From NCBI GenBank assembly GCA_902812415.1, contig CADDZJ010000021.1, positions 1 to 44,687 on the forward strand: a DNA stretch of 44,687 nucleotides, read 5' to 3'. Position numbers and translations under genes: made by a program. The notes beneath the pieces were generated by a model. It was not told the DNA's origin, made no database searches, and worked only from the letters and a program-made list of their open reading frames with translations. Source of the DNA: Acidobacteriota bacterium. Its GTDB lineage: Bacteria; Acidobacteriota; Terriglobia; UBA7540. The stretch's first letter is position 1; every line of letters starts with the position of its first letter. Positions 11,167 to 28,401 of this stretch are shown here, piece by piece.

Positions 11167-11383
11167 AAGACCTCCGTAGTGTAGGTTTGGTTCACGGACG
11201 AAGCGCGCTCCTCGTAAGAACCTCTCGATTAGAGGCAGCGCAGTGGCTTCACGATCCTCAGCCATTGCTCAAACTTTTATCCTCTGCTAAACTCTTGGCT
11301 ACGAGCGACTTCCGAGAAAATATCAATCTGCATTGCAAGCACGCCGTGTCATCTGAACCCGGCATTGTTGAAGGCTTTTGCAA

Positions 11384-13174
11384 ATGGTGGAAGAAGTAAG
11401 TCGAAGCATTCGAGGGTTTCGATTCGGAGTTTTCGAGCTTGACCTTCAGGCGCGCGAATTGCGGAGACGCGGCCTCAAGGTGAGGCTTCAGCAAAAGCCT
11501 CTTCAAATTCTTGAATTGCTTCTGGAAAGAGCGGGCGAGGTCGTGACCCGCAAAGACCTGCGCGAAAAATTATGGCCGGATACGTTTGTGGGATTTGACC
11601 GGAGCCTGAATACCGCCGTCAATTCCCTGCGCCGGGCATTGGGCGATTCTCCGGCGAATCCGCGGTTTGTGGAAACGCGATCGCGCTATGGCTACCGCTT
11701 TATCGCTCCCGTCGATACGACATCCTGGACGGCAGGACTCCATGCCAAAAATGGACAAACTCTGGATTCGATTGCCGTCCTTCCGTTTCAGAACTTAGGC
11801 GGCGATCCGGAAATGGAATATTTGAGCGATGGGATCACCGAGAGCCTGATTCATACGCTCTCGCAGTTGCCTGAAATTCGCGTGATGGCCCGAACGACGG
11901 TCTTTCGCTATAAAGGGAAGGAAATTGATCCGCAGATGCTGGCGCACGATCTGAACGTTCGCGCCCTGCTGATGGGAAGGATGATGCAGCGTGGAGACCT
12001 TTTGACCATCGGGGTGGAGTTGGTTGACGCTCTCAAGGGTTGGCGGCTTTGGGGCGAGCAGTATAACCGAAAATTCTCCAGCATCTTTGAAGTGCAGGAG
12101 GAAATCTCGAAAGAGATCTCTGAAAAGCTGCGGCTGCGGCTGACTGCAGATGAGAAGAAACGATTGTCGAAGCGCTATACGACAAACGCCGAGGCCTACC
12201 AGGATTATCTGAAAGGCAGATATTACTGGAACAAAATGACCGAGGAGGGCCTGAACCGAGGCATCGCTTATTTCGAGCGGGCGATCCGCCAGGACCCAGC
12301 CTTTGCGCTTCCTTATGCCGGGCTTTCCGATTCCTACGCTCTGTTTGCCTTTTTTGGCATCCGTCCGTCGAGAGAAGTGATGCCGAAAGCCGAAAAGGCG
12401 GCTCGAAAAGCGCTGGAAATGGACAACACTCTGGCAGAAGCTCATGCCTCGCTGGCCGGCATCCTGAAGTCTTTCCATTGGAATTGGGAAGAGGCCACGC
12501 AGGAATATAAACAGGCGCTGGAATTGAACCCCAATTACGCCACGGCTCACCGCTGGTATGCGGGTTTTCTCGCCGCTCTGGGAAGATCAAAGGAAGCTGC
12601 GCGAGAAATGGAGCGCGCCCGAGAATTGGATCCTCTCTCGCTGGTGATCAACATGGAAGTGGCCTGGAACTTGTATATGGCCCGCGATCATGTCCGGGCC
12701 GCTGAACAGGCCCTGAAAACATTGGAGGTGGAATCGCAGTTCTCACCCGCTTATCATGTCATGGGCCTGGCCTACGAGCAGATGGGAAAGTATCCTGAGG
12801 CGATTGCAGCGTTCCAAAGAGCGCAACAGGGATCAGTGGGAAACCCCATTGGTCTTGCCACACTAGGCTATGCTTACGGCCGGGCGAATCGCAAACCGGA
12901 AGCCAGGAAAATCCTGGGCGAGTTAAGAACACAGGCCCAACACAGCTATATTCCGCCTTATGCCTACTCCATCGTCTATCTGGGTCTGGGGGATAAAGAT
13001 CAGGGTCTCAAGTGGCTTGCAACAGCGTATGACGAACGCGATGTCTGGTTGATCTGGATTCTGTGTGATCCGCGCCTGGACCTTATCCGTCAGGAATCAG
13101 CATTCAAGGATCTCTTGCGGCAAATGAACCTGCCGACTGTAAGCCCGCCATCTGTCAATAATCGTAACACATAG
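11384..13174 (+). CDS. winged-helix (OmpR/CadC-type) DNA-binding protein with TPR repeats
   Basis: Residues of about 10-105 form an OmpR/PhoB-type winged helix (FRFGVFELDLQARELRR, then the closing RSRYGYRFIAPV). A middle domain begins SIAVLPFQNLGGDPEMEYLSDG and resembles the TolB-like N-terminal region of adenylate-cyclase-associated/CadC-like proteins. The C-terminal half is a run of TPRs (AYQDYLKGRYYWNK, then repeated A..YFERAI..DP units). There is no transmembrane helix, so unlike CadC it should be cytosolic. The ATG at 11384 has a GAAGG 9 bases upstream; a TTG two codons earlier is possible. Proteins of this architecture are abundant in Acidobacteriota. The signal sensed and its targets are unknown; the following TonB receptor is a candidate target by position only. 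Confidence 0.85.
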   Translation: MVEEVSRSIRGFRFGVFELDLQARELRRRGLKVRLQQKPLQILELLLERAGEVVTRKDLREKLWPDTFVGFDRSLNTAVNSLRRALGDSPANPRFVETRSRYGYRFIAPVDTTSWTAGLHAKNGQTLDSIAVLPFQNLGGDPEMEYLSDGITESLIHTLSQLPEIRVMARTTVFRYKGKEIDPQMLAHDLNVRALLMGRMMQRGDLLTIGVELVDALKGWRLWGEQYNRKFSSIFEVQEEISKEISEKLRLRLTADEKKRLSKRYTTNAEAYQDYLKGRYYWNKMTEEGLNRGIAYFERAIRQDPAFALPYAGLSDSYALFAFFGIRPSREVMPKAEKAARKALEMDNTLAEAHASLAGILKSFHWNWEEATQEYKQALELNPNYATAHRWYAGFLAALGRSKEAAREMERARELDPLSLVINMEVAWNLYMARDHVRAAEQALKTLEVESQFSPAYHVMGLAYEQMGKYPEAIAAFQRAQQGSVGNPIGLATLGYAYGRANRKPEARKILGELRTQAQHSYIPPYAYSIVYLGLGDKDQGLKWLATAYDERDVWLIWILCDPRLDLIRQESAFKDLLRQMNLPTVSPPSVNNRNT

Positions 13175-13459
13175 CTCCACGCACTTTGGGCAATTCTGAA
13201 TAGAACGCGAGTGACCAGGGAACAAGCTTGACCCGAAGAGTTACAATCGAGTCATGTGTCACTAGCGTTTCCGGAGAATGTGTGGTCATGGACAAGATGG
13301 CCATGCCACAATCGCGGCAGGGGAGGGTTTCCTGCACATTTGGTAATCCAAAAAGCTCTTTTTCTGATATGCTCCGAAAAACCTGGGGCACGCTTGTATG
13401 CATACTCGCAGGCGTACTCGCGTAAAAGGGTCAATTCGGAAACCAAGAGGGAGGAGAAA

Positions 13460-16400
13460 ATGACTCGACAATGGATGGGATTTCTTACCGCGTGTGTGGT
13501 TGTTTTGTCGTTTACAGTTTCCGCCGGGGCGCAGGTGACCACGGGAACAATCGTGGGCACCGTTCAGGAGCAGAGCGGCGCGGTCATTCCAGGGGCGAGG
13601 GTGACCGTGACGAATAGTGAGAAGGGCACGTCTCTGGTTTTCACAACAGACCAGAATGGTTATTACAACGCTCCTTTTCTTATTCCGGGGACCTATCAGG
13701 TAAGGGTTGCGAAGAGTGGCTTTCAGACCGCTGTGCGATCTGGCATCGTGCTTCAGGTGGATCAGCAGGTGAAAGTGGATTTCACTTTGACGTTGGGAGA
13801 AGTGACCCAGACCATCAGCGTGACGGCGGCGCCGCCCTTGGTGGAGTCACAGAGTTCTTCCCTGGGGCAAGTCATCAATCGCGCGCCGGTAGAAGAACTG
13901 CCATTGAATGGGCGAAATTTCGCTCAACTGGTGTGGTTGTCACCCGGTGTTACAACCGGTCAGATTGGAGAGAACCTTTCCGGCGCCAGCACGTTTAACC
14001 CCCGTGCCGCCTCAGACTTCAACGCTTTGGGCAGCCAGGCAAATGCCAACGCGTGGCTGGTGGACGGCATCGAGGATAACGAAGAGACGTTTAATACCGT
14101 GATGGTGCAGCCTTCGGTGGAATCCATCCAGGAATTCAAAGTGCTGACCGGCACATACTCGGCGGAATTTGGGCGGGGAGCCGGAGTGGTTTCTGTCTCC
14201 ACGCGCTCCGGGACCAATGAATTTCACGGCTCAGCGATGGATTTTCTCCGCAACACCGCGCTGAACGCGCGAAACTATTTTGCGGCCCCGACCGCGCCGA
14301 AACCGCCTTTCATCCGCAACCAATTTGAGGCGACGCTGGGCGGGCCGGCGCTGATCCCCAAAGTCTATAATGGACGCAATCACACTTTCGTCTTTCTGGA
14401 TTATTACGGCGAAAGGCAGATTCAGGGATTATCCTTCGTCAATTCCGTGCCCACAGCAGCCGTGCGGGGCGGCGACTTCAGTCAATATACAGGCAGCAAG
14501 GGCCCCATCACGATCTACAACCCATTTACAACGCAAGTGGTAAACGGCCAGATTGTGCGCCAGCCGTTTCCAGGGAATGTGATTCCTCCAAGCCTCATCA
14601 ATGCGGTGGGCCTGAGGGTGGCAAGCCTCTATCCCCTTCCGAATGCGCCAGGCAATTTCAACAACTACCTCGACACAGCCGATCGCACCATCAACGATAA
14701 CGGCGGCAACATCCGCGTGGATCACACCTTCAGCCAGAAAGACACCATGTTCGCGCGGTTCAGCTACGAGAAATATGCCTTGGTTGCTCCGCAAGGGCAG
14801 TCAGCCTGCTGCCTGCCTTCCAATCCCTCGCAAGCGCAGGAGTTTGACCTGGGACCTTACGTTGCCGGAGTGCAGGATACGACGCTTGCCGCGCAGGGGC
14901 TGGCGTTCAATGAGACTCACATCTTCCAGTCGAACATTGTGAATGAATTCCGCGCCGGATACGTCCGCACCAATCCCTATTCGACGCAGTCCGATATTGG
15001 CCATCATACCGCCACGGCGCTCGGCATCCAGAACATCAACGTGACGCGCTTCACGACCGGCATTCCCAATATTAACGTTCAGGACTTTACCGGACTGAGC
15101 GGCGGCCCGGCCTTTCTTCCCGCGAATCCCAAAGAAACCGACGAGCAACTGGAAGACGTGGTTTCCTGGATTGCTGGACGGCATCAGCTCAAGTTTGGTT
15201 TTCGGGGAGTGAACAAGGACTTCCAGCCTTTTACCAACACCAACACACGTGGCTCACTCAATTTTAACGATAATTTCACGAACGATCCCGTCACGAACAC
15301 CGGCGGCTCAGGCATCGCCACCCTGTTGCTGGGCTTTTCCACCAGCGGCTCGCGTGGATTCCTGGTGACGCCCTATTATCTTCGGGATGATGAATATGCC
15401 GCCTTCGCGCAGGATGACTGGAAGGTGAATTCGCGACTCACGCTCAACCTCGGTGTCCGGTACGACATTTTCACCGCGCCCACCGAAGAGCGTGATCGTT
15501 ACGTGAACTTTGATCCTTCGAATGACATTCTCATTTACGCTGCCGTCAACGGAACCTCGCGGTCAGGGAACGTTCAGACCCGCTACAAGAACGTGCAACC
15601 GCGCATCGGGTTCGCCTACGAGCTGACCGGCAAGACGGTGATCCGCGGGGGATACGGCATCAGCTACTTCCCTCTGATGCCTTCCGGCTCCAATTTCCTG
15701 GGCCAGCAGGTTCCCTACACGATATCGCAGAATTATAACCCTCCGGTTTTTCCGTTGGCTTCGCAGATGGCTTCTGTTCCGACGATTGCTGATCCCTTCG
15801 GCCCGCCCGTGGCCGTTCAGCCATTTACCACAGCGCAGTTGAATGCGGCCAACCCGCTGGGTTTGGGCTGGGCATTTGCCAACCAGACCCCGTACATGGA
15901 AACCTACAATTTTGACATTCAGCGCCAGCTTACCCCTACCATGCTGCTGGAAATTGCCTACGCGGGCAGCCGCGGAATTCACCTTCAGGAAGGCTATAAC
16001 ATTAACGAGGTGCAGCCAGGAAGCGGATCGCTTGCTTCACGACGGCTGATCCAGCCGCTCTCGAACGTCGCTACGATCAACTACTATTTCCCGGGTAACA
16101 TGTCGAACTACAACAGCCTTCAGGTAAAGCTCCAGAAGAATATCTCTCATGGTTTGCAGTTTCTCGCGAGCTATACTTACGCGAAGTCGCTGGACTACGC
16201 GGGCAGCAGCGCCAGCGGCGGAGGAGCAGTCGGCAATCCGCAGACTTACACCGACCGGAAGGCAGGTTACGGCCCATCCGGATTCGACATCACCCATCGT
16301 TTCGTGGGAAGTTGGGTTTATCTGCTGCCTTTCGGGCAAGGACAGCGCCTTGTTACCTCAAATGCCTTCCTGAGCCGCTTGGTGGGCGGGTGGGAGTTTG

Positions 16401-16822
16401 ACGGCATCTCCACTTTGGAAAGCGGGTTTCCGTTCAGCCTCACTTTGAATCAGGGAGTGAACCACGGCGCGCCGAGTTGGCCCAATCGAATTTGCAGCGG
16501 AACGCTTGCCAATCCTGACCCTTCTCGCTGGTACAACACAGCCTGCTTTGTGGCGCCGCCGCCCGATACTTATGGAAACGTTTCCCGTGGAGTGCTGCGC
16601 GGCCCTGATCTGGTGGATTTTGACGTTTCGCTCGTTAAGAACACGAAGCTCAAAGAGAGGTTTAACCTACAGTTCCGAGCTGATGCTTTCAATCTATTCA
16701 ACACGCCGTCGTTCTCGGTTGCCGGAATCAATACCGCGATCGGCTCGCCAACCGCTGGCAGAATTACAAGCACCAACATTGATAACCGCGAGTTCCAACT
16801 GGCCTTGAAGCTGCTTTTCTGA
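13460..16822 (+). CDS. TonB-dependent receptor, Oar-like with carboxypeptidase-regulatory-like domain
   Basis: This outer-membrane protein has 1120 residues. A signal peptide ends near SAGAQ. Residues of about 28-110 form a carboxypeptidase-regulatory-like beta-sandwich (GTIVGTVQEQSGAVIPGARV, then GYYNAPFLIPGTYQVRV). Next come a plug-like region (LPLNGRNFAQL, then WLVDGIEDNE) and a long beta-barrel ending in aromatic FQLALKLLF. Such receptors import glycans or other large ligands, driven by TonB. ATG 13460 is preceded by GGAGG. It is followed on the same strand by the RraA-like and enolase-superfamily genes, so the ligand may be a sugar acid or its polymer (inference). Confidence 0.92.
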   Translation: MTRQWMGFLTACVVVLSFTVSAGAQVTTGTIVGTVQEQSGAVIPGARVTVTNSEKGTSLVFTTDQNGYYNAPFLIPGTYQVRVAKSGFQTAVRSGIVLQVDQQVKVDFTLTLGEVTQTISVTAAPPLVESQSSSLGQVINRAPVEELPLNGRNFAQLVWLSPGVTTGQIGENLSGASTFNPRAASDFNALGSQANANAWLVDGIEDNEETFNTVMVQPSVESIQEFKVLTGTYSAEFGRGAGVVSVSTRSGTNEFHGSAMDFLRNTALNARNYFAAPTAPKPPFIRNQFEATLGGPALIPKVYNGRNHTFVFLDYYGERQIQGLSFVNSVPTAAVRGGDFSQYTGSKGPITIYNPFTTQVVNGQIVRQPFPGNVIPPSLINAVGLRVASLYPLPNAPGNFNNYLDTADRTINDNGGNIRVDHTFSQKDTMFARFSYEKYALVAPQGQSACCLPSNPSQAQEFDLGPYVAGVQDTTLAAQGLAFNETHIFQSNIVNEFRAGYVRTNPYSTQSDIGHHTATALGIQNINVTRFTTGIPNINVQDFTGLSGGPAFLPANPKETDEQLEDVVSWIAGRHQLKFGFRGVNKDFQPFTNTNTRGSLNFNDNFTNDPVTNTGGSGIATLLLGFSTSGSRGFLVTPYYLRDDEYAAFAQDDWKVNSRLTLNLGVRYDIFTAPTEERDRYVNFDPSNDILIYAAVNGTSRSGNVQTRYKNVQPRIGFAYELTGKTVIRGGYGISYFPLMPSGSNFLGQQVPYTISQNYNPPVFPLASQMASVPTIADPFGPPVAVQPFTTAQLNAANPLGLGWAFANQTPYMETYNFDIQRQLTPTMLLEIAYAGSRGIHLQEGYNINEVQPGSGSLASRRLIQPLSNVATINYYFPGNMSNYNSLQVKLQKNISHGLQFLASYTYAKSLDYAGSSASGGGAVGNPQTYTDRKAGYGPSGFDITHRFVGSWVYLLPFGQGQRLVTSNAFLSRLVGGWEFDGISTLESGFPFSLTLNQGVNHGAPSWPNRICSGTLANPDPSRWYNTACFVAPPPDTYGNVSRGVLRGPDLVDFDVSLVKNTKLKERFNLQFRADAFNLFNTPSFSVAGINTAIGSPTAGRITSTNIDNREFQLALKLLF

Positions 16823-16900
16823 CCCTTATCCCATTACGGAGGGCAGAAGGTGGCCTGGGGGCAACCCCTGTCAAATCTCGTGTGTTACCCCTTATTTTTT

Positions 16901-16909
16901 TGGTATACT
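16901..16909 (+). promoter_or_regulatory. putative extended -10 promoter of the RraA-like gene
   Basis: TGG followed by TATACT (16904-16909) gives an extended -10 in an AT-rich stretch, 29 bases before the ATG at 16938. No convincing -35 is seen. It suggests that the sugar-acid genes have their own promoter separate from the receptor gene. Confidence 0.4.
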
Positions 16910-16937
16910 CTCACGCTCTTACGGAGGAAACGGATGT

Positions 16938-17861
16938 ATGAGAAAGCATTTCTCGTTATGGCTGCTGGTTATTTTGATGCTCGGCGCAAGCGCCTGCGGA
17001 TGGTCTCAGCTTGGAATGTTTTCAAAAGAACAGCTTATTGAGTTTACGCCCGCATGGCACGGCGAACGCTTTCCGGACGGACGGCCCGAGGTTCCCGATT
17101 CGGTTTTACAACGTCTGAAGGACGCAACGGCTGAAGAAGCCTGGGAAGTCTTGCAGAAGGCAGGCTATCGCAACCAATTCGCGGGCGGCTGGAAGGTGAT
17201 TAACCCTTCAGAGCAGAGACTGATTGGCCGGGTGGTGACAGCGGTGTTTATGCCTTATCGCCCCGATGTGGATTCGGTGATCAGGGCCAACGCCGAAAAG
17301 GAAGGTCGCCACGCCCGAGGGGAGAATTCCTGGATCATTGATACGCTCAAGCCGGGCGACGTGATGGTGGTTGATCTCTTCGGAAAGATCAAAGATGGCA
17401 CCATTATCGGCTCCAATCTTGGCACGTCGGTTGCCACCAAGGAACGCAGCGGGCTTCCCATCGACGGGCTGATCGTGGAGGGCTCGGTGCGCGATACTGC
17501 CGAGATCGAGGATATCAAAGGGTTCGAGGTTTTCAGCCGCGGAACCGATCCTTCGGCGTTAAGGAACGTGATGCTGATGGGAATCAACGTGCCGATCCGG
17601 ATTGGCCAGACAACGGTGATGCCCGGTGACGTGGCCGTGAGCGATCCGGAGGGGATCACTTTCATCCCGGCGCAACTCGCCGAACCAGTGGCTGACCATG
17701 CTGAACTGGACCATCTGATTGATGATTGGGGAGAGATGATGCTGCGCGAGCAGAAGTACACCCCGGGTCAGATTGACGGCCGTTGGACCAACGAAATGAT
17801 CGATGAGTTCAATCGTTGGGCGGCGTCGAAAGGATCGAAGCTTCGACTCCAAAAACATTAA
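16938..17861 (+). CDS. exported RraA-family protein (HMG/oxaloacetate-type aldolase-like)
   Basis: This 307-residue protein has an N-terminal signal (hydrophobic LWLLVILMLGASAC) with a possible lipobox at ASAC. The core from about residue 130 matches the RraA fold: LKPGDVMVVD, then a Gly-rich turn, DGLIVEGSVRD (the Arg-Asp pair used by class II pyruvate aldolases of this family), and MPGDVAVSDPEGITFIP. Known members are RNase E regulators or 4-hydroxy-4-methyl-2-oxoglutarate/oxaloacetate-cleaving enzymes in the cytoplasm, so the export signal is unusual. GGAGG lies 10 bases upstream of the ATG. It lies 83 bases before a Tat-signal enolase-superfamily gene, suggesting successive steps on the same acid sugar (inference). 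Confidence 0.75.
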   Translation: MRKHFSLWLLVILMLGASACGWSQLGMFSKEQLIEFTPAWHGERFPDGRPEVPDSVLQRLKDATAEEAWEVLQKAGYRNQFAGGWKVINPSEQRLIGRVVTAVFMPYRPDVDSVIRANAEKEGRHARGENSWIIDTLKPGDVMVVDLFGKIKDGTIIGSNLGTSVATKERSGLPIDGLIVEGSVRDTAEIEDIKGFEVFSRGTDPSALRNVMLMGINVPIRIGQTTVMPGDVAVSDPEGITFIPAQLAEPVADHAELDHLIDDWGEMMLREQKYTPGQIDGRWTNEMIDEFNRWAASKGSKLRLQKH

Positions 17862-17944
17862 CCTGTCGCGAGTCAAAATCAACGTGGCACATCAACTTTT
17901 GAACTGTCGATGGTTCAGTGGCTTCGGCTTATGCAGGAGGACTC

Positions 17945-19270
17945 ATGGATAATTGGACGCGAAGAGGATTTCTCGGATCACTCTCGGGAGCAGCAGTGGC
18001 AACGGCGTTTGGCGCTCAGTCGGAGAATGGTCTGCCGTTCCCTGAGAACCGGACGCAGAATAGATCGATCAAGATCAAGATTACAGATCTCAAATGCGCA
18101 ATCATCGGTCGGAACCCGACGGTTCGAATCGTCACGGATCAAGGCATTTCCGGCTACGGTCAAGCGGAGTCTGCCAAGCCGTATCTCAAGCCAATGGTGC
18201 TGTTTTATAAGAGGTATCTTCTGGGCGAAGACCCGACGGACGTCGCGCGAGTGATGCTGAAGATCCGCCGGATGGGCGCGTTCAAGCCCTGGGGCGCAGC
18301 CGTCAGCGCCATCGAAATCGCTCTCTGGGATATCGCGGGGCAAGTTGCCGGATTGCCGGTGTATAAGCTGCTGGGCGGAAAGCTCCGCGACCGCGTCCGC
18401 GTCTACGGAAACTCCATCAACAACGTGCGCAGGATACCTCGCACGCCGCAGGACTACGCCGAGATCGCGGCGAGCGTGAAGGAGGCTAAAGAGGGCTACA
18501 CACTGATCAAGCAGCCCGTCGGCTTCCACAATCCGGCGATGATGCGCGCCATACCAGACATGTGGTATGACGAGCCGCGGACGGGTCCACCGCACATGGA
18601 TCGCGGTCTGATGACGGAACGCGGCCTCGACTATATCGTCACCTGCGTCGAAGCGATGAAAAAGGTCCTTGGCGACGAAGCCGGGCTGGCGCTGGACTGC
18701 GGACCGGGCTGGACAGTCAAAGATGCCATCCGGTTTGCGCGCGCGGTGGAACCGCTCCACATCACGTGGCTCGAAGACCTGATCACAGGCGATTACACGC
18801 CTTACCCAAACGCCCAGGTTTTCAAGCAGGTTACCGAGAGCACGTCGACCCCGATTCACACCGGAGAAGAGATTTACCTCCGAGAGAACTTCAAGGATCT
18901 CATCGAACAACAGGCTGTCAATGTGATCGGCCCCGATCCGGAAGACGTGGGCGGGATGGCGGAGCTGAAGTGGATTGCGGAGTACGCCGATCTTCACGGC
19001 ATCCTCGTCGCTCCGCACGGGATTTTCGACGGACTGTTCGGACTGGCGGCGGAAGTGCAGATGGGGGCGACCCTCCCCCAGAACTATATCGCTTTCGAAT
19101 ACCCGATAGGCCAGCCGGAGTGGTGGTATGACATCGTCGAGGGCTTGCCGGACCCAATCGTCAAAAAAGGCTTCATCGATGTTTGGGACAAGCCGGGTCT
19201 CGGCGTCACCTTCAACGTCCGGGCAGCCAAGGCGCGCCTATCCGAGGAGGATCGCGACTTTTTCGATTGA
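17945..19270 (+). CDS. Tat-signal enolase-superfamily (mandelate racemase/muconate-lactonizing) dehydratase-like enzyme 1
   Basis: The product has 441 residues. The Tat motif TRRGFLG (residues 5-11) and a hydrophobic Ala/Gly stretch indicate export. The remainder is a complete enolase-superfamily enzyme: an N-terminal capping domain with ISAIEIALWDIAG-like sequence (here VSAIEIALWDIAG), then a barrel with the three metal-ligand acids in LALDCG, WLEDL and HTGEE, and a late histidine in VAPHGIFDG. Relatives dehydrate sugar acids such as galactonate or mannonate. AGGAGG lies 4 bases before the ATG at 17945; the longer frame from 17918 lacks a site. A second enolase-superfamily gene follows 90 bases later. 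Specificity is not readable from motifs alone. Confidence 0.85.
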   Translation: MDNWTRRGFLGSLSGAAVATAFGAQSENGLPFPENRTQNRSIKIKITDLKCAIIGRNPTVRIVTDQGISGYGQAESAKPYLKPMVLFYKRYLLGEDPTDVARVMLKIRRMGAFKPWGAAVSAIEIALWDIAGQVAGLPVYKLLGGKLRDRVRVYGNSINNVRRIPRTPQDYAEIAASVKEAKEGYTLIKQPVGFHNPAMMRAIPDMWYDEPRTGPPHMDRGLMTERGLDYIVTCVEAMKKVLGDEAGLALDCGPGWTVKDAIRFARAVEPLHITWLEDLITGDYTPYPNAQVFKQVTESTSTPIHTGEEIYLRENFKDLIEQQAVNVIGPDPEDVGGMAELKWIAEYADLHGILVAPHGIFDGLFGLAAEVQMGATLPQNYIAFEYPIGQPEWWYDIVEGLPDPIVKKGFIDVWDKPGLGVTFNVRAAKARLSEEDRDFFD

Positions 19271-19360
19271 GACGCTAGTTTCTTCTTTAAGAACCCGGGA
19301 CCGAGCCCTGTTTGATTGTCCGTATTGACACCTACCAGGACTCGGAAAGGAGTCATCGTG

Positions 19361-20731
19361 ATGAAAGATGGAATCCAGATAAACCGTCGAGGCGTTTTGA
19401 AGTCGTCGGCTGCCATGCTGGGCGCCACGTTTCTAGGAGCGGATGCCGAGGCGAGCGCGGAAGCGCAGATTCAGCAGAACGTGAACACGCATTCAAGCCC
19501 TTCCACCTTGAAGATCACAGACCTGCGTGTGGCGACGGTGGTGAAGCCAGGGCCCAGTCCTTGCCCCATTGTTCGCATTGATACGAATCAGGGTGTGTAC
19601 GGTTTGGGCGAGGTGCGCGATGGCGCGAGCGCCACTTACGCGCTGATGCTGAAAAGCCGCATCCTGGGCGAGAACCCCCTCCGCATCGATTATATTTTCC
19701 AGAAGATCCAGCAGTTCGGCGGCGATGCGCGGCAGGCGGGCGGCGTCGTTTCCATCGAAATGGCCCTCTGGGACATCGCAGGAAAGGTGTACGGGGTTCC
19801 AATCTATCAGATGCTGGGCGGCAAGTGGCGCGACAAGATCAGAATTTACGCCGACACTACGGAATCAAAAGACCCCAAGATTTATGCTGAGCGCGAGAAA
19901 GCTCGCAAAGAAGAGATGGGCCTGACCTGGCTCAAAATGGACCTTGGGGTCGACCTGATTAAAGACATTCCCGGCGCTATCACGCAACCTTCAGGGCTAA
20001 GCCGCTGGGAGGAAACTTTCCAGCCTCATCCCTTTATTGCCACAGAGGTGACGGACAAAGGCATTGACAAGCTGTGTGAATACGTTGCCGCCGTACGCGA
20101 AGCCGTGGGCATGGAGATTCCGCTTTCCATGGACCACCTCGGGCATATCGGCGTGAAATCCTGCATCCGCCTGGGGCAGGCTTATGAGAAGTACAATCTT
20201 TCCTGGATTGAAGATGTGATTCCCTGGTATTACACCGACCTCTTGAAACGGATTACAGAAGAAAGCCCGACTCCTACGCTGACCGGTGAGGATATTTACC
20301 GCGAAGAGGATTTCGAGGTTCTGTGCTCAAACCATGCGGTCAGTAAGATTCATCCGGACCTTGCCACCTCAGGCGGGATTCTTCGCACTCACCGCATCGG
20401 CGACATGGCCTTCCGATACGGTGTGCCCATGGCGATGCACATGGCGGGGACGCCCGTAGCCTGCATGGCGAGCGTCCACTGCGCTGCGGCGACGCGAAAC
20501 TTTCTGGCCATGGAGAATCACTCGCTGGATGTGCCGTGGTGGCAGGACCTGGTGGAAGGCATCGAGAAGCCAATCATCAACAAGGGCTATATCACCGTTC
20601 CGGATAGACCGGGTCTAGGTATAACGCTGAACGAGGACGTCGTCAGGCAACATTTAAAGCCTGGCACAGGCTATTTCGAGCCGACGACTCAATGGAATGA
20701 AGAGCGCTCGTGGGATCGGTTGTGGAGTTAG
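19361..20731 (+). CDS. Tat-signal enolase-superfamily (mandelate racemase/muconate-lactonizing) dehydratase-like enzyme 2
   Basis: The product has 456 residues. NRRGVLKSSAAMLGA (from residue 8) is a Tat signal. The enolase-superfamily body has SIEMALWDIAGK in the capping domain and metal-ligand acids in LSMDHLGH, WIEDV and LTGEDIY, with a histidine-rich MAMHMAG loop near the C-terminus. It differs clearly from enzyme 1 (the residues after the first Asp are HLGH instead of CGPG), so it probably acts on a different epimer or a later intermediate rather than being a recent duplicate. GAAAGGAG precedes the ATG at 19361; GTG 19358 is an adjacent alternative. Confidence 0.85.
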   Translation: MKDGIQINRRGVLKSSAAMLGATFLGADAEASAEAQIQQNVNTHSSPSTLKITDLRVATVVKPGPSPCPIVRIDTNQGVYGLGEVRDGASATYALMLKSRILGENPLRIDYIFQKIQQFGGDARQAGGVVSIEMALWDIAGKVYGVPIYQMLGGKWRDKIRIYADTTESKDPKIYAEREKARKEEMGLTWLKMDLGVDLIKDIPGAITQPSGLSRWEETFQPHPFIATEVTDKGIDKLCEYVAAVREAVGMEIPLSMDHLGHIGVKSCIRLGQAYEKYNLSWIEDVIPWYYTDLLKRITEESPTPTLTGEDIYREEDFEVLCSNHAVSKIHPDLATSGGILRTHRIGDMAFRYGVPMAMHMAGTPVACMASVHCAAATRNFLAMENHSLDVPWWQDLVEGIEKPIINKGYITVPDRPGLGITLNEDVVRQHLKPGTGYFEPTTQWNEERSWDRLWS

Positions 20732-20870
20732 GTTGTACCTGAAAGGCGCCAGCCGTCGGGCATTGCTGTAGCGGAGCTGTCCCCAGCGCCGAAAAGAATC
20801 GCCGGTGGGGGTGGGGATACCGTGCTGCAGCCATCGCAGGGAAAACCCCTGCGCAAGCGCTCGCGCTTTG

Positions 20871-21830
20871 TCAGGGGTTCACCACGTTCTGCGGCTCGCC
20901 TTTCAGGAAAGCCGCGAGATTATCAATCGCGGCGCGCATCAGGCGGGCGCGAGCTTCGCGCGTGGCCCAGGCCAGATGCGGCGTAATGATGCAGTTTTTA
21001 GCCTTGAGCAGCGGGTTGTCAGGGGATGGAGGTTCGCTGGAGAGCACATCAAGCGCCGCGCCTGCCAGCTTCCCCTGATTTAAGGCGTCCGCAAGCTCCT
21101 GCTCCACGATCAGCGCGCCGCGAGCCGTGTTGATGAGGAAGGCGCTTGGCTTCATCAGCCGAAGCCGCTCGGCATTGATCAATCCCCGAGTTTCCGGCGT
21201 AAGCGGGCAGTGGAGACTCACTACGTCGGCGGCCATCAGAATCTCTTCCGTAGTCGCCCACACGAATTCCTCATAAACCGGAGGCTCTTTGTGGCTGGCA
21301 TTGTGCGCCAGGATGTGCATTCCCAGCGCGTGGACAATTTCCGCAACTCGCTGGCCAATCCGCCCGAAGCCAATCACGCCAAAAGTTTTTCCCGCCAGTT
21401 CGATCAAGGGAGATTTCCAGAAACACCAGTCTTTGCTTCGTGACCATTCCCCCGAGTGAACGGCATCGTTGTGCATACCCGCGCGGTGACAAAGTTCAAG
21501 CAACAAGGCGATGGTGTGCTGCGCCACCGAATCCGTGCCGTAAGTCGGCACGTTAGTGACGGTAATACCCGACTCGCGCGCCGCTGAGGTGTCAATCATG
21601 TCATACCCTGTAGCCAGCACTCCGATGTAGCGAAGCTCGGCCAGGCCTTGCAGCGTATCTTTCCCAAGTGGAACCTTGTTCGTTAACACTGCCTGGACTC
21701 CGGTCGCTCTTTCAACGATTAATTCTTGCGGTGTGCGATCATAAATCGCGGTGGGGCCGAGCTTCTCTAATTCTTCCCAGGATAGATCGCCCGGATTAAG
21801 TGCGTAACCGTCCAAGACAACGATTTTCAT
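20871..21830 (-). CDS. D-2-hydroxyacid dehydrogenase (glycerate/hydroxypyruvate reductase-like)
   Basis: This 319-residue NAD(P)-dependent enzyme of the D-isomer 2-hydroxyacid dehydrogenase family has the nucleotide fingerprint GVIGFGRIGQRV, LINTARGALI with the substrate-binding Arg, DVLSSEPP with the catalytic Glu, and TPHLAWAT with the catalytic His. It interconverts 2-oxo acids and D-2-hydroxy acids such as hydroxypyruvate/D-glycerate. ATG 21830 has a GGAG 9 bases upstream; the earlier in-frame ATG at 21881 adds 17 unconserved residues. It is convergent with enzyme 2 and would suit reduction of the oxo acids from the dehydratases and aldolase nearby (inference). Confidence 0.9.
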   Translation of the reverse strand: MKIVVLDGYALNPGDLSWEELEKLGPTAIYDRTPQELIVERATGVQAVLTNKVPLGKDTLQGLAELRYIGVLATGYDMIDTSAARESGITVTNVPTYGTDSVAQHTIALLLELCHRAGMHNDAVHSGEWSRSKDWCFWKSPLIELAGKTFGVIGFGRIGQRVAEIVHALGMHILAHNASHKEPPVYEEFVWATTEEILMAADVVSLHCPLTPETRGLINAERLRLMKPSAFLINTARGALIVEQELADALNQGKLAGAALDVLSSEPPSPDNPLLKAKNCIITPHLAWATREARARLMRAAIDNLAAFLKGEPQNVVNP

Positions 21831-22077
21831 GTTTTTGACTCCAGAGTGCGCAGAGGCGCCCTGACGCAATAGACCTATCATCCAGCGCTCGCATAACCAG
21901 CGCTCTTCGCCGCTCGAAGACAGAACGATGACTATATCGTGTGAATATCAAAGGCTGCAAGTTCTTGGGGTTGGATGAGGGGAAGAAAGAGTTAATGTGC
22001 CCAGCATAGCAGACGGGCTGTCGCAGCAGGACTTGGGCTTTCCATATCTTTTCATGGATGTCTGTCCAGCCGTCAAG

Positions 22078-23214
22078 TTACCAGATTAACGCAGCGGGGG
22101 CCTGTCCTGAAATGATCTCCGGGTCAAGTTCGTATCCGAAACCCGGCGCCTCGGTCAGCTTGACGATGCCGTTCTGGGGTTGCGGTTCTCCTTTCAGCAG
22201 CGGCCTGCCGCCTTGCGCGAAAATATCCACAAACTCAGCACGCGGGCAATTGGGCGTGGAAATGACGAAATGATAGGTCGGAGCGCCCACGCCGTGAGGA
22301 ATGACGGGCAGGTTATAAGCGCTGGCCATGGCTGCGATTTTTTTGAGTTCGGAAAGCCCCCCTGCCCTGTAAATATCGGGCTGAAGAATATCCACCGCTC
22401 TCTTTTCAATCAAGTCCCGGAAACCGTATCGGGTAAATTCGTGTTCGCCGCCCGTAATCAGAATATCCGGCGCGGCGTCTTTGATCTGGCGATAAGCGTC
22501 AGGCTGATCCGGAGGCACCGGCTCTTCGATCCAAAGCACCTTGTAGGGGGCCACCGCATGCGCTAATTGAATTGCATAGGGCACATCGAGCGACATGTAG
22601 CAGTCCAGCATGATGTCGCCATCAGGACCAATGAGATTACGGGTCTTTTCCACCAGGGCGATATTCTTTCGCAATCCTTCCTTTCCATCCGCTGGGCCAT
22701 GCGGCAACGCCAGCTTCACATGCCGGAAGCCCTCCTGCAAGTGGCGTTCGGTCAGGTTGCCGGTGACGTAAACCGGTATTTCCTCCCGCACCTTTCCGCC
22801 AGCCAGATTATAGACAGGTTGTCCGAGGGCTTTCCCGACAAGGTCCCACAAGGCCAGATCAATGCCGCTGATAACCTCGATGACGGCGCCTTTGCGCCCA
22901 TAAAATTGCGAGGCCCGGAACATCTGCTCCCAGAGAAGCTCGATGTTGAAAGGGCTTTGCCCTACCAGCAGGTTTTTGAATTGTTCTTCAATGATGGGCG
23001 CAGCCAGTTTCCCCTTCGCGCCGCCCACTACGCCATAGCCCCGATGGCCGGAATCCGTTCGGATTTCCACAATCGCTGAGGTCATGGGCCCAAACCAGCT
23101 TGAGCGCTTATCGTGATAGGCCGGGTAGATGGACATGGGGTTGGCCACTAACCCTTCGCTCAGCCACGATGAGTTCATCGGGATGGCATGGACTTTGACT
23201 TCTGTAATGCGCAG
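22078..23214 (-). CDS. L-rhamnonate-dehydratase-like enolase-superfamily enzyme, probable CTG start
   Basis: The sequence has the RhmD pattern: MLDCYMSLD (first metal Asp), WIEEPVPPD (second, Glu), GGEHEFTRYGFRDL (third, Glu), DILQPD, and IPHGV with the catalytic His; LLKGEPQPQNG near the end is also RhmD-like. RhmD dehydrates L-rhamnonate to 2-keto-3-deoxy-L-rhamnonate. The first ATG (23178) would remove the first beta strand. Reading upstream in frame gives LRITEVKVHAIP, a classic family N-terminus, starting at CTG 23212-23214 with AGGAG 8 bases before it. That start gives 378 residues. It has no export signal, unlike the two plus-strand relatives, so it is cytoplasmic. Confidence 0.85.
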   Translation of the reverse strand: MRITEVKVHAIPMNSSWLSEGLVANPMSIYPAYHDKRSSWFGPMTSAIVEIRTDSGHRGYGVVGGAKGKLAAPIIEEQFKNLLVGQSPFNIELLWEQMFRASQFYGRKGAVIEVISGIDLALWDLVGKALGQPVYNLAGGKVREEIPVYVTGNLTERHLQEGFRHVKLALPHGPADGKEGLRKNIALVEKTRNLIGPDGDIMLDCYMSLDVPYAIQLAHAVAPYKVLWIEEPVPPDQPDAYRQIKDAAPDILITGGEHEFTRYGFRDLIEKRAVDILQPDIYRAGGLSELKKIAAMASAYNLPVIPHGVGAPTYHFVISTPNCPRAEFVDIFAQGGRPLLKGEPQPQNGIVKLTEAPGFGYELDPEIISGQAPAALIW

Positions 23215-23314: not shown

Positions 23315-24817
23315 CTACTGCGGCAACGTGATCACTGCCACTCCGAAAGCGCGCAGGATGAGGTTTTCGCCGGAAAGCTGAGCCGAGGCCGGCGGCTGCT
23401 CTCCCGTAGTCGGGTCCACGTATTCTTCCATCCCGCCCGTTGCGCCCGGAATGGCCACTTGAAAGTCGCGGTTTCGCTCATTGGCCAGCAGGAGTTTATG
23501 CTTTCCATCCTTGGTGACAAAACCCTGGACATAGACATAAGGAAGGCTGGCGTTACTTTCGACCAGCTTATCCCCGGGGCCAAAGTTATCGTGCAGCAGT
23601 TTAAGCGTCCAGAAGCGAGCATTAGGCTGGCCGGTTTTCCAATTCACCATGGAAACGCTGGGGAATTGAGAGGGATATCCCACCAACTGGGATTCTCCGG
23701 CTACTTCAACACCGAGATTTGCCAGGTTGCCGTAAAGATAGGCGTACATGGCAGAGCAAAGATTCCAATAGGCATCGGGAATGGGCAGCTTGCCCTGAGG
23801 ATCGCCTGGCAAGATCGCGCCCAGTTCGTCGGCATCGGTGCCGGTTTCAGGCGAGAGGCGCTCTCGGATCACCTGAATGTACCTTACCGTATCCAGAAAT
23901 CGATTGGCCTGATCAAAAAAAGTATGCTGCCACGTTGCTAAATCCTCGTCCGCTGCAGGCGAGGCATAAAAGTGATAGGAGATCATATTGAGCGGAATTC
24001 CGGGTTTGTGATTCTTGTGGTTTAAAAAGTACTCGATAAATTGCGGCGAGTTGGAAGGCATCGCCAGCGCCAAACCCACGAATTTAATCTTCGGATCAAC
24101 CTTATGAACGGCTGCGACGATGGCGTCATAAAGTCGCGTGTAAAACTCTGGAGTCATGTGATGCTCAAAATCCACTTCGTTGAGCACTTCCCAGTAGTCG
24201 ATTTTATAGTGATGATCCGACTTGTGTTCCTGGCCAAATTCATCCTTGAAACCGCCCCGAGTGTACCAACTCACTAATCGGCCGTAATAATCGGCCACTT
24301 CCTTCATCGACGGGTCGCGCAATTCGGTCCCTTGTTCGTAGTGCCAGGTGACTTGGTCAGGATCGGAAGGATAGGGAACAGGCGACGGTGTTTTCCACAT
24401 CCATTGCGGGATGGTGCTGAAGTTGATGATCACCGAATGCCCCTCGGTGGCCTGCATGAAGTCGTCCATCATCGGGTCGATCAAGGAGAAATCCCAGGAA
24501 GTCTTCCCATTCGCTGGAGGTTCCAGCTCCGCCACGCCCAGCTTGGGGTAGGGAAGCCACGGAACATAACGCACGTAGTCGGCGCCAAGATCGCGGAGCG
24601 CCTCAAAAACCCGATTGTGAATCGAGGACCCGCGCCGCAGCGGCGGATTCACCACCACCTGCAAGGTGGGCGTTGAGTTTGACACGCGAACTACGTGGTC
24701 CCAGTTCACGTGGATGTCTACTGCGTGGGCCGGAGGGTTCTGTGGAGCTGGCTTGTTGTGCTGGCAACCCGCAAAGCCCATGACGACGAACAGCAGAACA
24801 CCCAGGTTTTTTCTCAT
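23315..24817 (-). CDS. clan GH-A-like glycoside hydrolase lipoprotein
   Basis: The 500-residue product has a lipoprotein signal (LLFVVMGFAGC, Cys18). The barrel resembles clan GH-A/GH39-type glycosidases: VRYVPWLPYPKLGVAE, then SVIINFSTIPQWMW, then YWEVLNEVDFEHH, whose Glu214 in the N-E motif fits the acid/base catalyst. A later glutamate in VAGESQLVGYP may be the nucleophile. A C-terminal beta domain follows. Substrate is unknown; GH39-like enzymes act on xylosides, iduronides or related sugars. AGGAG precedes the ATG by about 9 bases. It lies between the RhmD-like gene and the TonB receptor, all on the minus strand, so cleavage at the cell surface or in the periplasm to feed this pathway is likely. 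Confidence 0.75.
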   Translation of the reverse strand: MRKNLGVLLFVVMGFAGCQHNKPAPQNPPAHAVDIHVNWDHVVRVSNSTPTLQVVVNPPLRRGSSIHNRVFEALRDLGADYVRYVPWLPYPKLGVAELEPPANGKTSWDFSLIDPMMDDFMQATEGHSVIINFSTIPQWMWKTPSPVPYPSDPDQVTWHYEQGTELRDPSMKEVADYYGRLVSWYTRGGFKDEFGQEHKSDHHYKIDYWEVLNEVDFEHHMTPEFYTRLYDAIVAAVHKVDPKIKFVGLALAMPSNSPQFIEYFLNHKNHKPGIPLNMISYHFYASPAADEDLATWQHTFFDQANRFLDTVRYIQVIRERLSPETGTDADELGAILPGDPQGKLPIPDAYWNLCSAMYAYLYGNLANLGVEVAGESQLVGYPSQFPSVSMVNWKTGQPNARFWTLKLLHDNFGPGDKLVESNASLPYVYVQGFVTKDGKHKLLLANERNRDFQVAIPGATGGMEEYVDPTTGEQPPASAQLSGENLILRAFGVAVITLPQ

Positions 24818-25071: not shown

Positions 25072-28000
25072 CTACCACAGCAGCTTCAAAGCGAACTGGA
25101 TGACACGCGGGGAGTGACCCAGGCCATTGATCACCCCAAAGCATCCAGCCGACACCGACGTGCATGCATCGCCAAACTGGGTGTGGTTCCACGCATTGTA
25201 AAATTCGGCGCGGAACTGGGTTCCGAACCGTTCGCTGATCGGCGTGTCTTTCATCAGGCTGATATCCCAGTTGTTGATGCCGGGCATTTCGAGGCTGTTG
25301 CGCGCGGCGGTGCCCTGCAGATGCAGGCCGGGGGTGCAAGGCACGTAACTGGGGCATCCTGGAAACACAAAGGAATTAAGGTTAAGCCAATCTGTATAAG
25401 TCTGGTGCGCAGGATAAGCAGGCCCGATCTTGTCAGGGCGGGAAGAGCTGAAGGCTCCAAGGACCTGCCAGTCCTGCGGCAGGGTAGGCGTCTTATACTG
25501 CCCGGTTGAAAAGGTCGTAATGCCGGAGACGCTCCAGCCGCCAGCCAGCTTGCCTACCGCGCCAGCCAAGCCCGATCCGAAGCGCCGGCCACGACCGAAC
25601 GGCAGATCATACACGTAGCTCAGAACCGCGCGATGGCGCACGTCGTAGTCGCCGTTGCCTTTGTCGAGCACCTTGAAGCAACACTGCGAACCTGAGAAGT
25701 CATCCGTGTTGCCGAGATCAATTGCATGGCTCCACGTGTAAGACCCCACGAAATAAAACCCGTTCGCAAACCGGTGTTCGACGCGCGTTGCGAGGCCGTT
25801 GTAGCTTGACCAGCCGCCATTATAAGTGAGCAGAATCCAACTGAAGGCCGGAAAGGGCACGCGCTTCGAAATCGGAATCGTCCCGGTGGGGTCAAAGGCC
25901 GGGCCATCTTCGTTCCGCCGTTGCGGCAGTTTTTGCCCCACGTCACCGATGTATCCCACATCGACAAGCCAGTTTCCCGCGAACGTGTGCTGCACGTCAA
26001 AGTTCCACTCCTGCACATACGGAGTGCGGTTCCGCTTGTCGATGCTGAAAGGCACCGTCGTCCCCCCGCCCAGCGTTCCGGCTGGGAAAATATTCTCCAG
26101 GGAGATGGTCGGCTTGGTGGGATCGGAATTCAGAGTCTGGGTTGTGTAAAAACCCGGGTCAATAACCATGAACTGCAATTCATTCCAATTGTCGGTGGCG
26201 TAAAAAACTCCGAAAGAGCTGCGCACGACTGTGTTGGAAACAAAGGAAGGGCTCCAGGCAAATCCCACGCGCGGCGCGAAGTTGTTATAGTCCGGATCGA
26301 CAATCCCGTTACGAACGCCGCCGCTCCGCGAGTAAACCACTTGCTGGACGGCGGGATCAAACCAGGCTGTTTTCGAGCTGGTGTCGAATGGCGGCTGGCC
26401 GTACTCGTAGCGAACGCCCAGGTTTAAAGTCAAATCGCGGCGGATTCGCCAGTCATCCTGCAGAAAGCCGGCATAAAAGTTCGATCGCAGATCCTGCGAG
26501 GAGTCGCCGACCGAAGCCGTGGCCGACTCCGGGTCGCCTAGCAGGAAATCGCCGATGCCGAAGGGAATTTGGGTGTAGCGGCCCGAAAAATTAAAACTGG
26601 GCACGCCGCCGAAGTCGGTAATCTGATAGAACTTTTCGTGAATGTAATTGATTCCCAGCTTGATGTTGTGCTGGCCGGAGACAATGCTCAGGTTGTCCAC
26701 CCACTGGAAATCCTGATCGAGCGCTCCGATGGATTCAGACGGCGAGCCGGGCGAAGTGAATCCCGCCACGCCGGCATCGGGAACTCCAAAGTCGAACGGA
26801 TTGGGTGAAGTGTTCTGGAATCCGAAGACGTCCCGGGCAAAATTCGTGGTTAAGGCGCCCAGCCCGACCAGGTAGGTCTTGCCACGATTGTAGCCAAAGC
26901 GCGCTTCATTCACGACTTCCGGCGCAAAAGTATGTGTCTCGGTGATCTGCAAGAGATCGTCGCTCAGCGGCCAGTTGTTTCCCGAATACGGCATCACACC
27001 CGGGGCGATGTGCGGCCGGTTATCATGCGTAAAGCTGCCCCAGATCTGGTCTTTCGATGTCAAGGTCTGGTCAATTCGGGTATTTTCCTGATCCATGTTG
27101 TCGTAGCCGCGCACGGTGGTCGCATAATTATAGAGCGCGCGCCCATTCGCGGAATTGATCGGCGGATTCGAGAGGTTCGGCGCGGGCCAGAATTGGAGCC
27201 ACTTCTGCGCCACCGGATCGAGCCTCGACGAAGGGATCGTATTCCCCGGAAAGGGCTGTCCGGTTGAAGGGTCAATGACATTCGCGCAACTCTGCGAAGC
27301 GGGATTCGCCTGGCAAAAGGCGGAACTCGTTGGGAAAATGCCCGTGCCGGCGGAATTATCCGTCAGATCGCCTGCCAACTGAGCGCGGCTCGGAACCCGG
27401 GCGGTTGCATTGGAGACAGTTGGATTGCGAATGCCCTCATAGTTGAAAAAGAAAAAGGTTTTGTTACGCCCATCGTAGAGGTGCGGCAGGTAAATTGGGC
27501 CGCCAAGGCTTGCCCCAAAATCGTTATACCTTACCAGTCCTTTCGGCAGCCCGTTCAGATTTGAGAAAAAGTCATTGGCGTTGAAGATGTCGTTCTGAAC
27601 GTAGTCATAAGCATCGCCGTGCAGGGTGTTGCCTCCCGATTTGATCGTCGTGTTGATTACCGCTGACGAACGCCCATACTCCGCCGAAAAGTTGTCCGTC
27701 TGCACCTTGACTTCCTGGATGGCGTCGAAAGAGGGCCGCAGGTTGGCGCTCCCGAAGCGCGCGTTCCGGGATTCGATGCCATCGACCAGAAAACTCTCAT
27801 TGGACTCCCGCAGCCCCGCCACGCTCGCCGTAACGTTCCCGCTGCCAGCGCCCGTCCAATAGGAGGCGGGGGAATTGCCCGACCCGATGGGGGCCGTGCC
27901 TGCCGAAAGCGTGGTCAGAGCAATGAAATTCCGGTTCACGATGGGAAGATTTGCCACGGCCGTCTGCGGCACCACCTGGCCCATGGAAGACGTTTGGGTT

Positions 28001-28401
28001 TCGAGAAGCTGAACGCCCCCGGCGCTCACCGTCACGGATTGCGTTATTTGCCCCAGGTTCAGCACCACGTCCACACGGGGCCGCTGGCCCAGCAGGAGAT
28101 CAATATCGGAGATGGTCGTGGTCTTAAACCCCTCCTTGGAGACCGCGAGACGATAGTGACTCGGTTTGAGTTGCGCAAAGAGGTAATTTCCGCCCGCGTC
28201 AGTCGTGGCCATGAACTTTACCCCGGTCGCCGTCTGGGTCAGGATGACTTTAGCGCCCGGAACCACGGCGCCGCTTGCATCGCGCACCGTGCCGAGGATA
28301 TCGCCCGTAATCGCCTGGCTGAGAGCGAGCGGGGAATAGAGCGCCAGGACGAGAAGGAAAGCGGCCGCCAGGCGCGCGCCCCAAAGTTTCGATTCCTTCA
28401 T
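25072..28401 (-). CDS. TonB-dependent receptor, Oar-like with carboxypeptidase-regulatory-like domain (second copy)
   Basis: The product has 1109 residues. A signal peptide ends near ALSQA. A carboxypeptidase-regulatory-like domain follows (GTVRDASGAVVPGAKV, then GNYLFAQLKPSHYRLAV), then the plug (ANLPIVNRNFIAL, FLVDGIESRNARFG) and a long barrel ending FALKLLW. GGAGG lies 6 bases before the ATG. It is divergent in sequence from the receptor at 13460, so the two probably bind different ligands. A TTGACA promoter and a GntR-type operator lie directly upstream. Position beside the GH lipoprotein and RhmD-like gene suggests uptake of the oligosaccharide or acid sugar (inference). Confidence 0.92.
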   Translation of the reverse strand: MKESKLWGARLAAAFLLVLALYSPLALSQAITGDILGTVRDASGAVVPGAKVILTQTATGVKFMATTDAGGNYLFAQLKPSHYRLAVSKEGFKTTTISDIDLLLGQRPRVDVVLNLGQITQSVTVSAGGVQLLETQTSSMGQVVPQTAVANLPIVNRNFIALTTLSAGTAPIGSGNSPASYWTGAGSGNVTASVAGLRESNESFLVDGIESRNARFGSANLRPSFDAIQEVKVQTDNFSAEYGRSSAVINTTIKSGGNTLHGDAYDYVQNDIFNANDFFSNLNGLPKGLVRYNDFGASLGGPIYLPHLYDGRNKTFFFFNYEGIRNPTVSNATARVPSRAQLAGDLTDNSAGTGIFPTSSAFCQANPASQSCANVIDPSTGQPFPGNTIPSSRLDPVAQKWLQFWPAPNLSNPPINSANGRALYNYATTVRGYDNMDQENTRIDQTLTSKDQIWGSFTHDNRPHIAPGVMPYSGNNWPLSDDLLQITETHTFAPEVVNEARFGYNRGKTYLVGLGALTTNFARDVFGFQNTSPNPFDFGVPDAGVAGFTSPGSPSESIGALDQDFQWVDNLSIVSGQHNIKLGINYIHEKFYQITDFGGVPSFNFSGRYTQIPFGIGDFLLGDPESATASVGDSSQDLRSNFYAGFLQDDWRIRRDLTLNLGVRYEYGQPPFDTSSKTAWFDPAVQQVVYSRSGGVRNGIVDPDYNNFAPRVGFAWSPSFVSNTVVRSSFGVFYATDNWNELQFMVIDPGFYTTQTLNSDPTKPTISLENIFPAGTLGGGTTVPFSIDKRNRTPYVQEWNFDVQHTFAGNWLVDVGYIGDVGQKLPQRRNEDGPAFDPTGTIPISKRVPFPAFSWILLTYNGGWSSYNGLATRVEHRFANGFYFVGSYTWSHAIDLGNTDDFSGSQCCFKVLDKGNGDYDVRHRAVLSYVYDLPFGRGRRFGSGLAGAVGKLAGGWSVSGITTFSTGQYKTPTLPQDWQVLGAFSSSRPDKIGPAYPAHQTYTDWLNLNSFVFPGCPSYVPCTPGLHLQGTAARNSLEMPGINNWDISLMKDTPISERFGTQFRAEFYNAWNHTQFGDACTSVSAGCFGVINGLGHSPRVIQFALKLLW

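Follow-up and report, generated by a model that had tools for sequence, protein, structure and literature searches.

Acid-sugar dehydratases make a 2-keto-3-deoxy type product from an aldonate, and the central carbon chemistry of sugar acids has been assumed to follow import into the cell. Here we describe a window of 44,687 nucleotides (the whole stretch of DNA analysed, contig CADDZJ010000021.1, here C21) from the 4.84 Mb draft genome of an Acidobacteriota bacterium, in which a gene for a TonB-dependent receptor is followed by rraA, enoA and enoB, coding for an RraA-family protein and two enolase-superfamily proteins with predicted export signals. Among the described systems, the ong pathway of Pseudoalteromonas is a functional analogue of an exported set of amidohydrolase (AmidoH), DgaE-type ammonia lyase and RidA found in relatives of this locus: as set out in the available text of PMC9537276, the deacetylase OngB and the pyridoxal 5'-phosphate (PLP) deaminase OngC make 2-keto-3-deoxygluconate (KDG) from N-acetylglucosaminic acid (GlcNAc1A), and the RidA protein OngD is needed for growth. 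However, these steps are placed in the cytoplasm by the authors, KDG is phosphorylated by KdgK with no cleavage by an exported RraA described in that text, and OngC is a fold type III PLP enzyme whereas DgaE is SelA-like. Sugar chemistry beyond glycoside hydrolysis has also been proposed for the periplasm of Caulobacter and Bacteroidota, namely the LacABC and DUF1080 3-ketolactose route, but this consists, in the text available (PMC9007349), of oxidation and keto-glycoside hydrolysis by unrelated enzymes, in contrast to the sugar-acid dehydration and aldol cleavage considered here. The 4-hydroxy-4-methyl-2-oxoglutarate/4-carboxy-4-hydroxy-2-oxoadipate (HMG/CHA) aldolase of Pseudomonas putida F1 (3noj) resembles the window RraA in fold and Arg-Asp pair, although it appears in the text available as an aromatic-pathway enzyme without a signal (PMC5065237), whereas the window protein has a signal extension and an exchanged third acid. 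In a sugar-uptake locus on a Rhizobium leguminosarum plasmid (L182), an enolase-superfamily gene is likewise directly followed by an RraA-like gene; there, a four-gene sugar ATP-binding cassette (ABC) transporter imports the substrate first, so that cytoplasmic enzymes are implied, while the loci described here have TonB or SusCD receptors, enzyme signal peptides and often a keto-acid or lactate carrier. A search of plasmids for relatives gave only matches under 60% identity. No account of an exported enolase-RraA pathway was found among open-access papers. The recurrence of RraA together with EnoB, both with signals, in distant bacteria suggests a mode of sugar-acid use that has not been described.

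The reading that we favour, and hold to be reasonably probable, is periplasmic dehydration by EnoB followed by RraA cleavage of 2-keto-3-deoxy acids, with import of the small products. The TonB receptor would bring a sugar acid, or a glycan yielding one, into the periplasm, where EnoB, folded in the cytoplasm and exported by twin-arginine translocation (Tat), would dehydrate the sugar acid to a 2-keto-3-deoxy acid, as its family and residues suggest. RraA, exported by the Sec route, would then carry out a metal-dependent retro-aldol reaction to give an aldehyde together with pyruvate or a 2-oxo acid like it, and these small products would cross the inner membrane via a monocarboxylate/keto-acid carrier, which is encoded adjacently in many relatives and elsewhere in this genome. 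We infer the substrate and product of the route as well as its chemistry, the latter from enzyme family, residues and the exchange of front ends; the extracytoplasmic location of the enzymes is strongly supported by the comparison of sequences that follows.

The sequence-only reading had placed three consecutive genes, for an RraA-family protein and two enolase-superfamily enzymes, behind a TonB receptor, and the open reading frames and profile matches above cut-off bear this out. The receptor gene, rraA (16938..17861), enoA (17945..19270) and enoB (19361..20731) lie head to tail on the + strand, with intergenic gaps of 115, 83 and 90 bases. Shine-Dalgarno-like sequences precede all three enzyme genes on the same strand: GGAGG at 16923..16927, 10 bases before ATG 16938; AGGAGG at 17935..17940, 4 bases before ATG 17945; and AGGAG at 19348..19352, 8 bases before ATG 19361. 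Because these ribosome-binding sites sit just upstream, the starts keep the predicted signals, and rather than lying downstream of the RR motifs, which the earlier reading had named as fatal to it, they lie upstream of them. RraA, a putative class II 2-keto acid aldolase assigned by PF03737, fold match and the kept R185-D186, begins MRKHFSLWLLVILMLGASACGWSQ, with a Sec-type signal (16938..17009, +) and a possible lipoprotein cysteine at residue 20 (C20). EnoA and EnoB, both of MR/MLE type with PF02746 and PF13378, are predicted to be Tat-exported; the former is of a rare subgroup and the latter is a putative sugar-acid dehydratase and the conserved partner of RraA. EnoA begins MDNWTRRGFLGSLSGAAVATAFGAQ and has the Tat-type signal MDNWTRRGFLGS (17945..18016, +), EnoB begins MKDGIQINRRGVLKSSAAMLGATFLGADAEASAEA and has the Tat-type signal MKDGIQINRRGVLKS (19361..19465, +), and both combine an RR motif with a hydrophobic stretch in a genome that has the Tat translocase (TatC on contig C107). 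By eye, such signals occur in this genome on 6 of the 20 enolase-superfamily proteins above cut-off (one N-terminus being unresolved), EnoA and EnoB included, and on two of seven RraA proteins, the window's included; since only a minority carry them, the window signals are not a matter of chance. The other four Tat-type enolase-superfamily genes lie on contigs C2, C15, C74 and C94 (L187-L190), and the one on C2 adjoins genes for a quinoprotein/cytochrome-like protein and another Tat-type protein.

Within the phylum, 29 of 396 genomes yielded relatives of the window RraA (E<=1e-20). A further 80 loci, the best 80 of 545 found by conserved-peptide patterns and thus favouring close relatives, are spread over Acidobacteriota, Bacteroidota, Verrucomicrobiota, Chloroflexota, Poribacteria and others. 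Signal counts were taken from these RraA-locus rows, from which the duplicate loci L071, L087 and L140 were dropped. A hydrophobic N-terminal segment is present in 109 of 115 non-duplicate RraA rows, whereas only 4 of 25 proteins from these loci that are FGGY kinases, AraC regulators or members of two ADH families satisfy that rule (threshold 1.8, chosen after the values had been seen). The cleavage site is of AxA-Q type in 102 of the 115 rows and a lipobox pattern occurs in only 13, so that lipoprotein status as a rule for RraA was rejected. Among 76 pairs of RraA with an enolase within 3 kb (pairs with an enolase cut at a contig end were dropped), both proteins carry signals in 73, neither does in three, and no pair is mixed, under a Tat rule that was loosened after L072 and L073 (GRRALLKTS) had failed its first version. 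This matched presence and absence implies that EnoB and RraA share a compartment. The three signal-less pairs all belong to Poribacteria (L109, L128, L147) and represent one lineage; their EnoB begins ...NVNTNSRPSELKITD or a close form, which matches the beginning of mature window EnoB; the start of their RraA is just ahead of the conserved domain. The signal is thus an addition to an otherwise similar protein, and the Poribacteria pairs are apparently, from their N-termini, a cytoplasmic version of the same pathway. Gfo/Idh genes lie near the pairs in L128 and L147. In AlphaFold models, residues 1-48 of EnoB are disordered and outside the confident fold, as are about residues 1-28 of RraA, which include a low-confidence helix at 5-17. 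Prediction of signals was by rule only, which leaves some room for the N-terminal extensions not to be real signals and for the enzymes to be cytoplasmic as usual; we consider this highly improbable in view of the Shine-Dalgarno-placed starts, the matched pairs across phyla with their signal-less counterparts, the position of the extensions outside the folded domain and the low rate at which cytosolic families of the same loci pass the hydrophobicity rule.

The sequence-only reading had also proposed a test by co-occurrence across genomes, and this bore out the association of RraA with EnoB while changing the membership of the unit. In 247 Bacteroidota genomes, scored for presence and distance, RraA was found in 14, an EnoB-type enolase in 11 and a DgaE-type ammonia lyase in five; all EnoB and DgaE genomes are nested within the 14 RraA genomes, and the 233 without RraA have neither at the cut-off used. 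DgaE is present in all three RraA genomes that lack EnoB (G535, G543, G580). Each of the 16 EnoB-type matches has an RraA at most 3 kb away, and in 13 cases the distance is no more than 400 bp; conversely, an enolase was found within 400 bp of 14 of the 21 RraA copies, and DgaE within 5 kb of a further three (Fisher values for linkage 8.7e-17 and 2.7e-7, ignoring relatedness). As far as these genome comparisons go, the conserved unit in relatives is RraA plus EnoB. It could be argued that the enolases and RraA are exported but have separate jobs, in glycan-use regions that are simply rich in such genes, since this genome has 20 enolase-superfamily genes above cut-off, six of them Tat-like and some away from RraA, and since EnoA relatives are not near RraA. 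The confinement of EnoB-type genes to the immediate vicinity of RraA, with none in genomes that lack RraA, makes this explanation improbable.

The favoured route draws its chemistry largely from what stands in for EnoB. Loci without EnoB often hold a deacetylase-type amidohydrolase, a Tat-type DgaE-like PLP ammonia lyase and RidA, all predicted to be exported from their signals: RR in 9/9 full-length DgaE (a tenth row is a fragment), a hydrophobic signal in 9/9 amidohydrolases and RR in 10/10 RidA (two rows by eye). Mapped onto the 116-row RraA tree, the DgaE label requires six changes; well-supported branches force no fewer than five of these, and one (L069) is near the window sequence. By this placement, the deacetylase-DgaE-RidA front end has taken the place of EnoB on at least five occasions. 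That two unrelated front ends substitute for each other beside RraA would be explained if both supplied it with a common product, and because a product of the same kind is expected from both, dehydration followed by aldol cleavage is the most economical reading of the sequences. In L056, a Tat-type UxuA adjoins a Tat-type enolase and is a possible third front end. Isolates also carry the locus, Dyadobacter fermentans (L131) being one and Flagellimonas pacifica (L133) another, the latter in the DgaE version. In the window's own genome, the DgaE version lies on contig C60 (L186: 9000-24021) with an RraA of its own: a TonB receptor gene is accompanied there by genes for two Tat DgaE-like proteins, two RidA (one Tat, one Sec-type), an amidohydrolase and a second-subfamily RraA, both with export signals, a DUF4380 protein and a quinoprotein-like protein. 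The last (L186:9826-11538) reaches 553 bits with the model for acido-empty-quinoprotein group A (cut-off 650) and 504 bits with that for pyrroloquinoline quinone (PQQ) alcohol dehydrogenase (cut-off 480), so that its cofactor is doubtful; a full-length close relative lies beside RraA in L069 and C60 only, and no claim is made for a PQQ dehydrogenase as a fixed first step.

Catalytic residues, whose absence the earlier reading would have taken as decisive against it, are kept in EnoB and in RraA, with one swap in RraA that is itself conserved. The window RraA scores 74.3 bits against PF03737 (cut-off 24.5), and its model (predicted local distance difference test, pLDDT, 86.5) has the alpha-beta-beta-alpha RraA fold, matching 5x15 with a Z of 22.6 and the HMG/CHA aldolase 3noj with a Z of 19.8 (200 residues aligned, root-mean-square deviation 3.0). 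In the P. putida enzyme, the available text gives R123 as the catalytic Arg and D124 as the metal-binding Asp (PMC5065237). R185-D186 is the corresponding catalytic pair in the window protein, and RD is kept in 116/116 rows. D159 occurs together with G189 in 102 of the 116 rows, S or A at 159 goes with E189 in 11/11 rows, the window's included (S159, RDTAE), and three rows are otherwise. As the 11 rows are scattered over three or more separate regions of the tree (the window, one Acidobacteriota family, and Pontibacter L142), the third acid seems, from the alignment, to have moved from 159 to 189 rather than to have been lost. The window protein does not match the D-X20-R-D motif of RraA/HMG-CHA aldolases reportedly given by Mazurkewich in 2014, which 100 of the 116 rows match; RD-X2-E is a second known motif form. 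The window RraA was rejected as an RNase E regulator, because it has a signal, an active site of aldolase type and enzymes as partners. Some loci that already hold one RraA encode another, distant RraA-like protein (45-58 bits; L061:8346-9149, L062:2458-3252, L063:3-629); it adjoins a Tat enolase and has a signal-like N-terminus in L061 and L062, and the L063 copy begins at the edge of the stretch.

In EnoB, numbered from ATG 19361, K192, D194, D258, H259, G261, H262, E284, E310, D333 and H360 are invariant in 56/56 rows and E385 is kept in 55/56; we take D258, E284 and E310 to be the acidic metal ligands, and D333 and H360 to be the Asp-His dyad. Its fold is closest to 2qq6 (Z 49.0), followed by other dehydratase-like structures. 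DxH at the first metal ligand is typical of galactonate/mannonate dehydratases, and it is found in 2QQ6 and in low-scoring partner enolases. Several observations weigh against the favoured reading. At its first metal ligand, EnoB departs from the usual DxH with DHxGH (56/56), which makes its family a distinct subgroup, and it falls under every NCBIfam equivalog cut-off (190.2 against 311 bits for galactonate dehydratase, NF010624). RraA has Ser at 159 where most rows have Asp with Gly189; 4 of 21 Bacteroidota RraA copies have no partner within 5 kb, and for 25 of 116 RraA rows no partner was recognised inside 3 kb, some of these rows being at contig ends; the signal calls come from simple rules with thresholds set after the values had been seen; and the inner-membrane carrier is absent from the window operon.

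Some of this would also fit a different chemistry, in which the exported enzymes act on something other than a plain aldonate, EnoB being a cycloisomerase/dehydratase for modified or cyclic acids (e.g. anhydro sugar, plant or aromatic acids) and RraA a hydroxy-acid aldolase or an oxaloacetate decarboxylase. Besides the motif and scores of EnoB, its fold matches extend to 3,6-anhydro-D-galactonate cycloisomerase (5olc) and to galactarolactone cycloisomerase (4hpn), and RraA relatives act on HMG/CHA and oxaloacetate, according to the available text of PMC5065237. On the other hand, annotation of the alternative front end gives a deacetylase, a DgaE-type ammonia lyase and RidA, a combination whose chemistry is familiar from amino-sugar acids; the surroundings of the RraA loci include SusC/D or TonB receptors as well as sugar kinases, and the top fold matches of EnoB are dehydratase-like. 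We therefore regard this alternative as unlikely, though less so than the others. For the last step of the favoured route, 29 of 53 Bacteroidota loci have an SBF/BASS symporter gene no more than 4.5 kb away, and three Acidobacteriota loci have a lactate permease instead; one BASS-family protein that was scored is above the Pfam SBF cut-off and under the NCBIfam BASS and PanS cut-offs. Both carrier families are encoded elsewhere in the window's genome, the lactate permease being split across two contigs. BASS proteins carry pyruvate, 2-keto acids and related acids, as described in the available text of PMC10645422.

The sequence-only claim of an extracytoplasmic sugar-acid pathway with two dehydratases therefore survives in part: matched signals and phylogenetic profiles argue strongly for export of the set, and dehydration with aldol cleavage may stand as stated above, while EnoA drops out of the conserved unit. 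EnoA was found in 4 of 297 genomes (E<=1e-80) and, because it is adjacent to RraA in the window alone, it lies outside the conserved pathway; two dehydratases as conserved core were rejected on the same ground, since it lies away from RraA in the other three (in L179 as far as a contig of only 3.9 kb shows). It has D, E, E, D and H at the columns of the EnoB metal ligands and dyad, with DCGPG at the first metal ligand, and scores 149.6 bits against NF010624 (cut-off 311). Its relatives, at 74-78% identity, have an N-terminal extension in 3/3 cases, with RR readable in two (TRRGFVGS in L179 and L180; the third row was printed too far upstream). We would guess that EnoA widens the substrate range as a second dehydratase or an epimerase.

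We see as evenly poised the wider proposition that a complete non-phosphorylating Entner-Doudoroff-like pathway operates outside the cytoplasm in Acidobacteriota, Bacteroidota, Verrucomicrobiota and others, in which an exported RraA would be served by interchangeable and likewise exported front ends (for sugar acids, EnoB or another Tat enolase; for amino-sugar acids, deacetylase, DgaE-type ammonia lyase and RidA; possibly UxuA) and pyruvate-type acids, not sugars, would be imported. If the chemistry is indeed periplasmic, C3 acids would be imported by simple symporters, phosphorylation would be avoided, and aldehydes and pyruvate may be released for neighbours to use. Large sets of genes that at present carry the names RraA family protein or mandelate racemase family protein would likewise acquire a function; a recent genome paper, in its available text, counts RraA proteins under aromatic degradation (PMC12584681). 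Because the front ends are swapped as modules, a small number of proteins would suffice to test the order of the reactions.

The second receptor and the glycoside hydrolase lipoprotein that the earlier reading had noted nearby are both present. The first receptor, TBDT1 (13256..16822, +; OMP_b-brl_4 and CarboxypepD_reg by Pfam), is a probable outer-membrane importer whose true start is likely near 13460, judging by domain position, and a receptor of this type also adjoins RraA-EnoB in L072, L073 and L075. Just 5' of it, at 11378-13174 (+), lies a gene for an OmpR-type DNA-binding domain fused to TPR repeats, possibly the regulator; a 451-bit relative occurs near RraA in L059. A scan of 13000-21200 for promoters and terminators gave nothing exceeding shuffled sequences. 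Downstream, a convergent set on the opposite strand comprises the second TonB-dependent receptor, TBDT2 (25072..28401, -; Pfam), a GH39-like putative lipoprotein (23315..24817, -), which has a 696-bit relative near an RraA in L070, an L-rhamnonate-dehydratase-like enolase without a signal (22078..23178, -; 344 bits, under the 393-bit cut-off; true start probably slightly upstream) and a 2-hydroxyacid dehydrogenase, also without a signal (20871..21881, -; Pfam). The signal-less enolase is a useful within-window contrast to EnoA and EnoB. Tat-like N-termini were further observed on a ferritin-like protein at 9244-10419 (-) and on a protein without a Pfam match at 1393-2673 (+).

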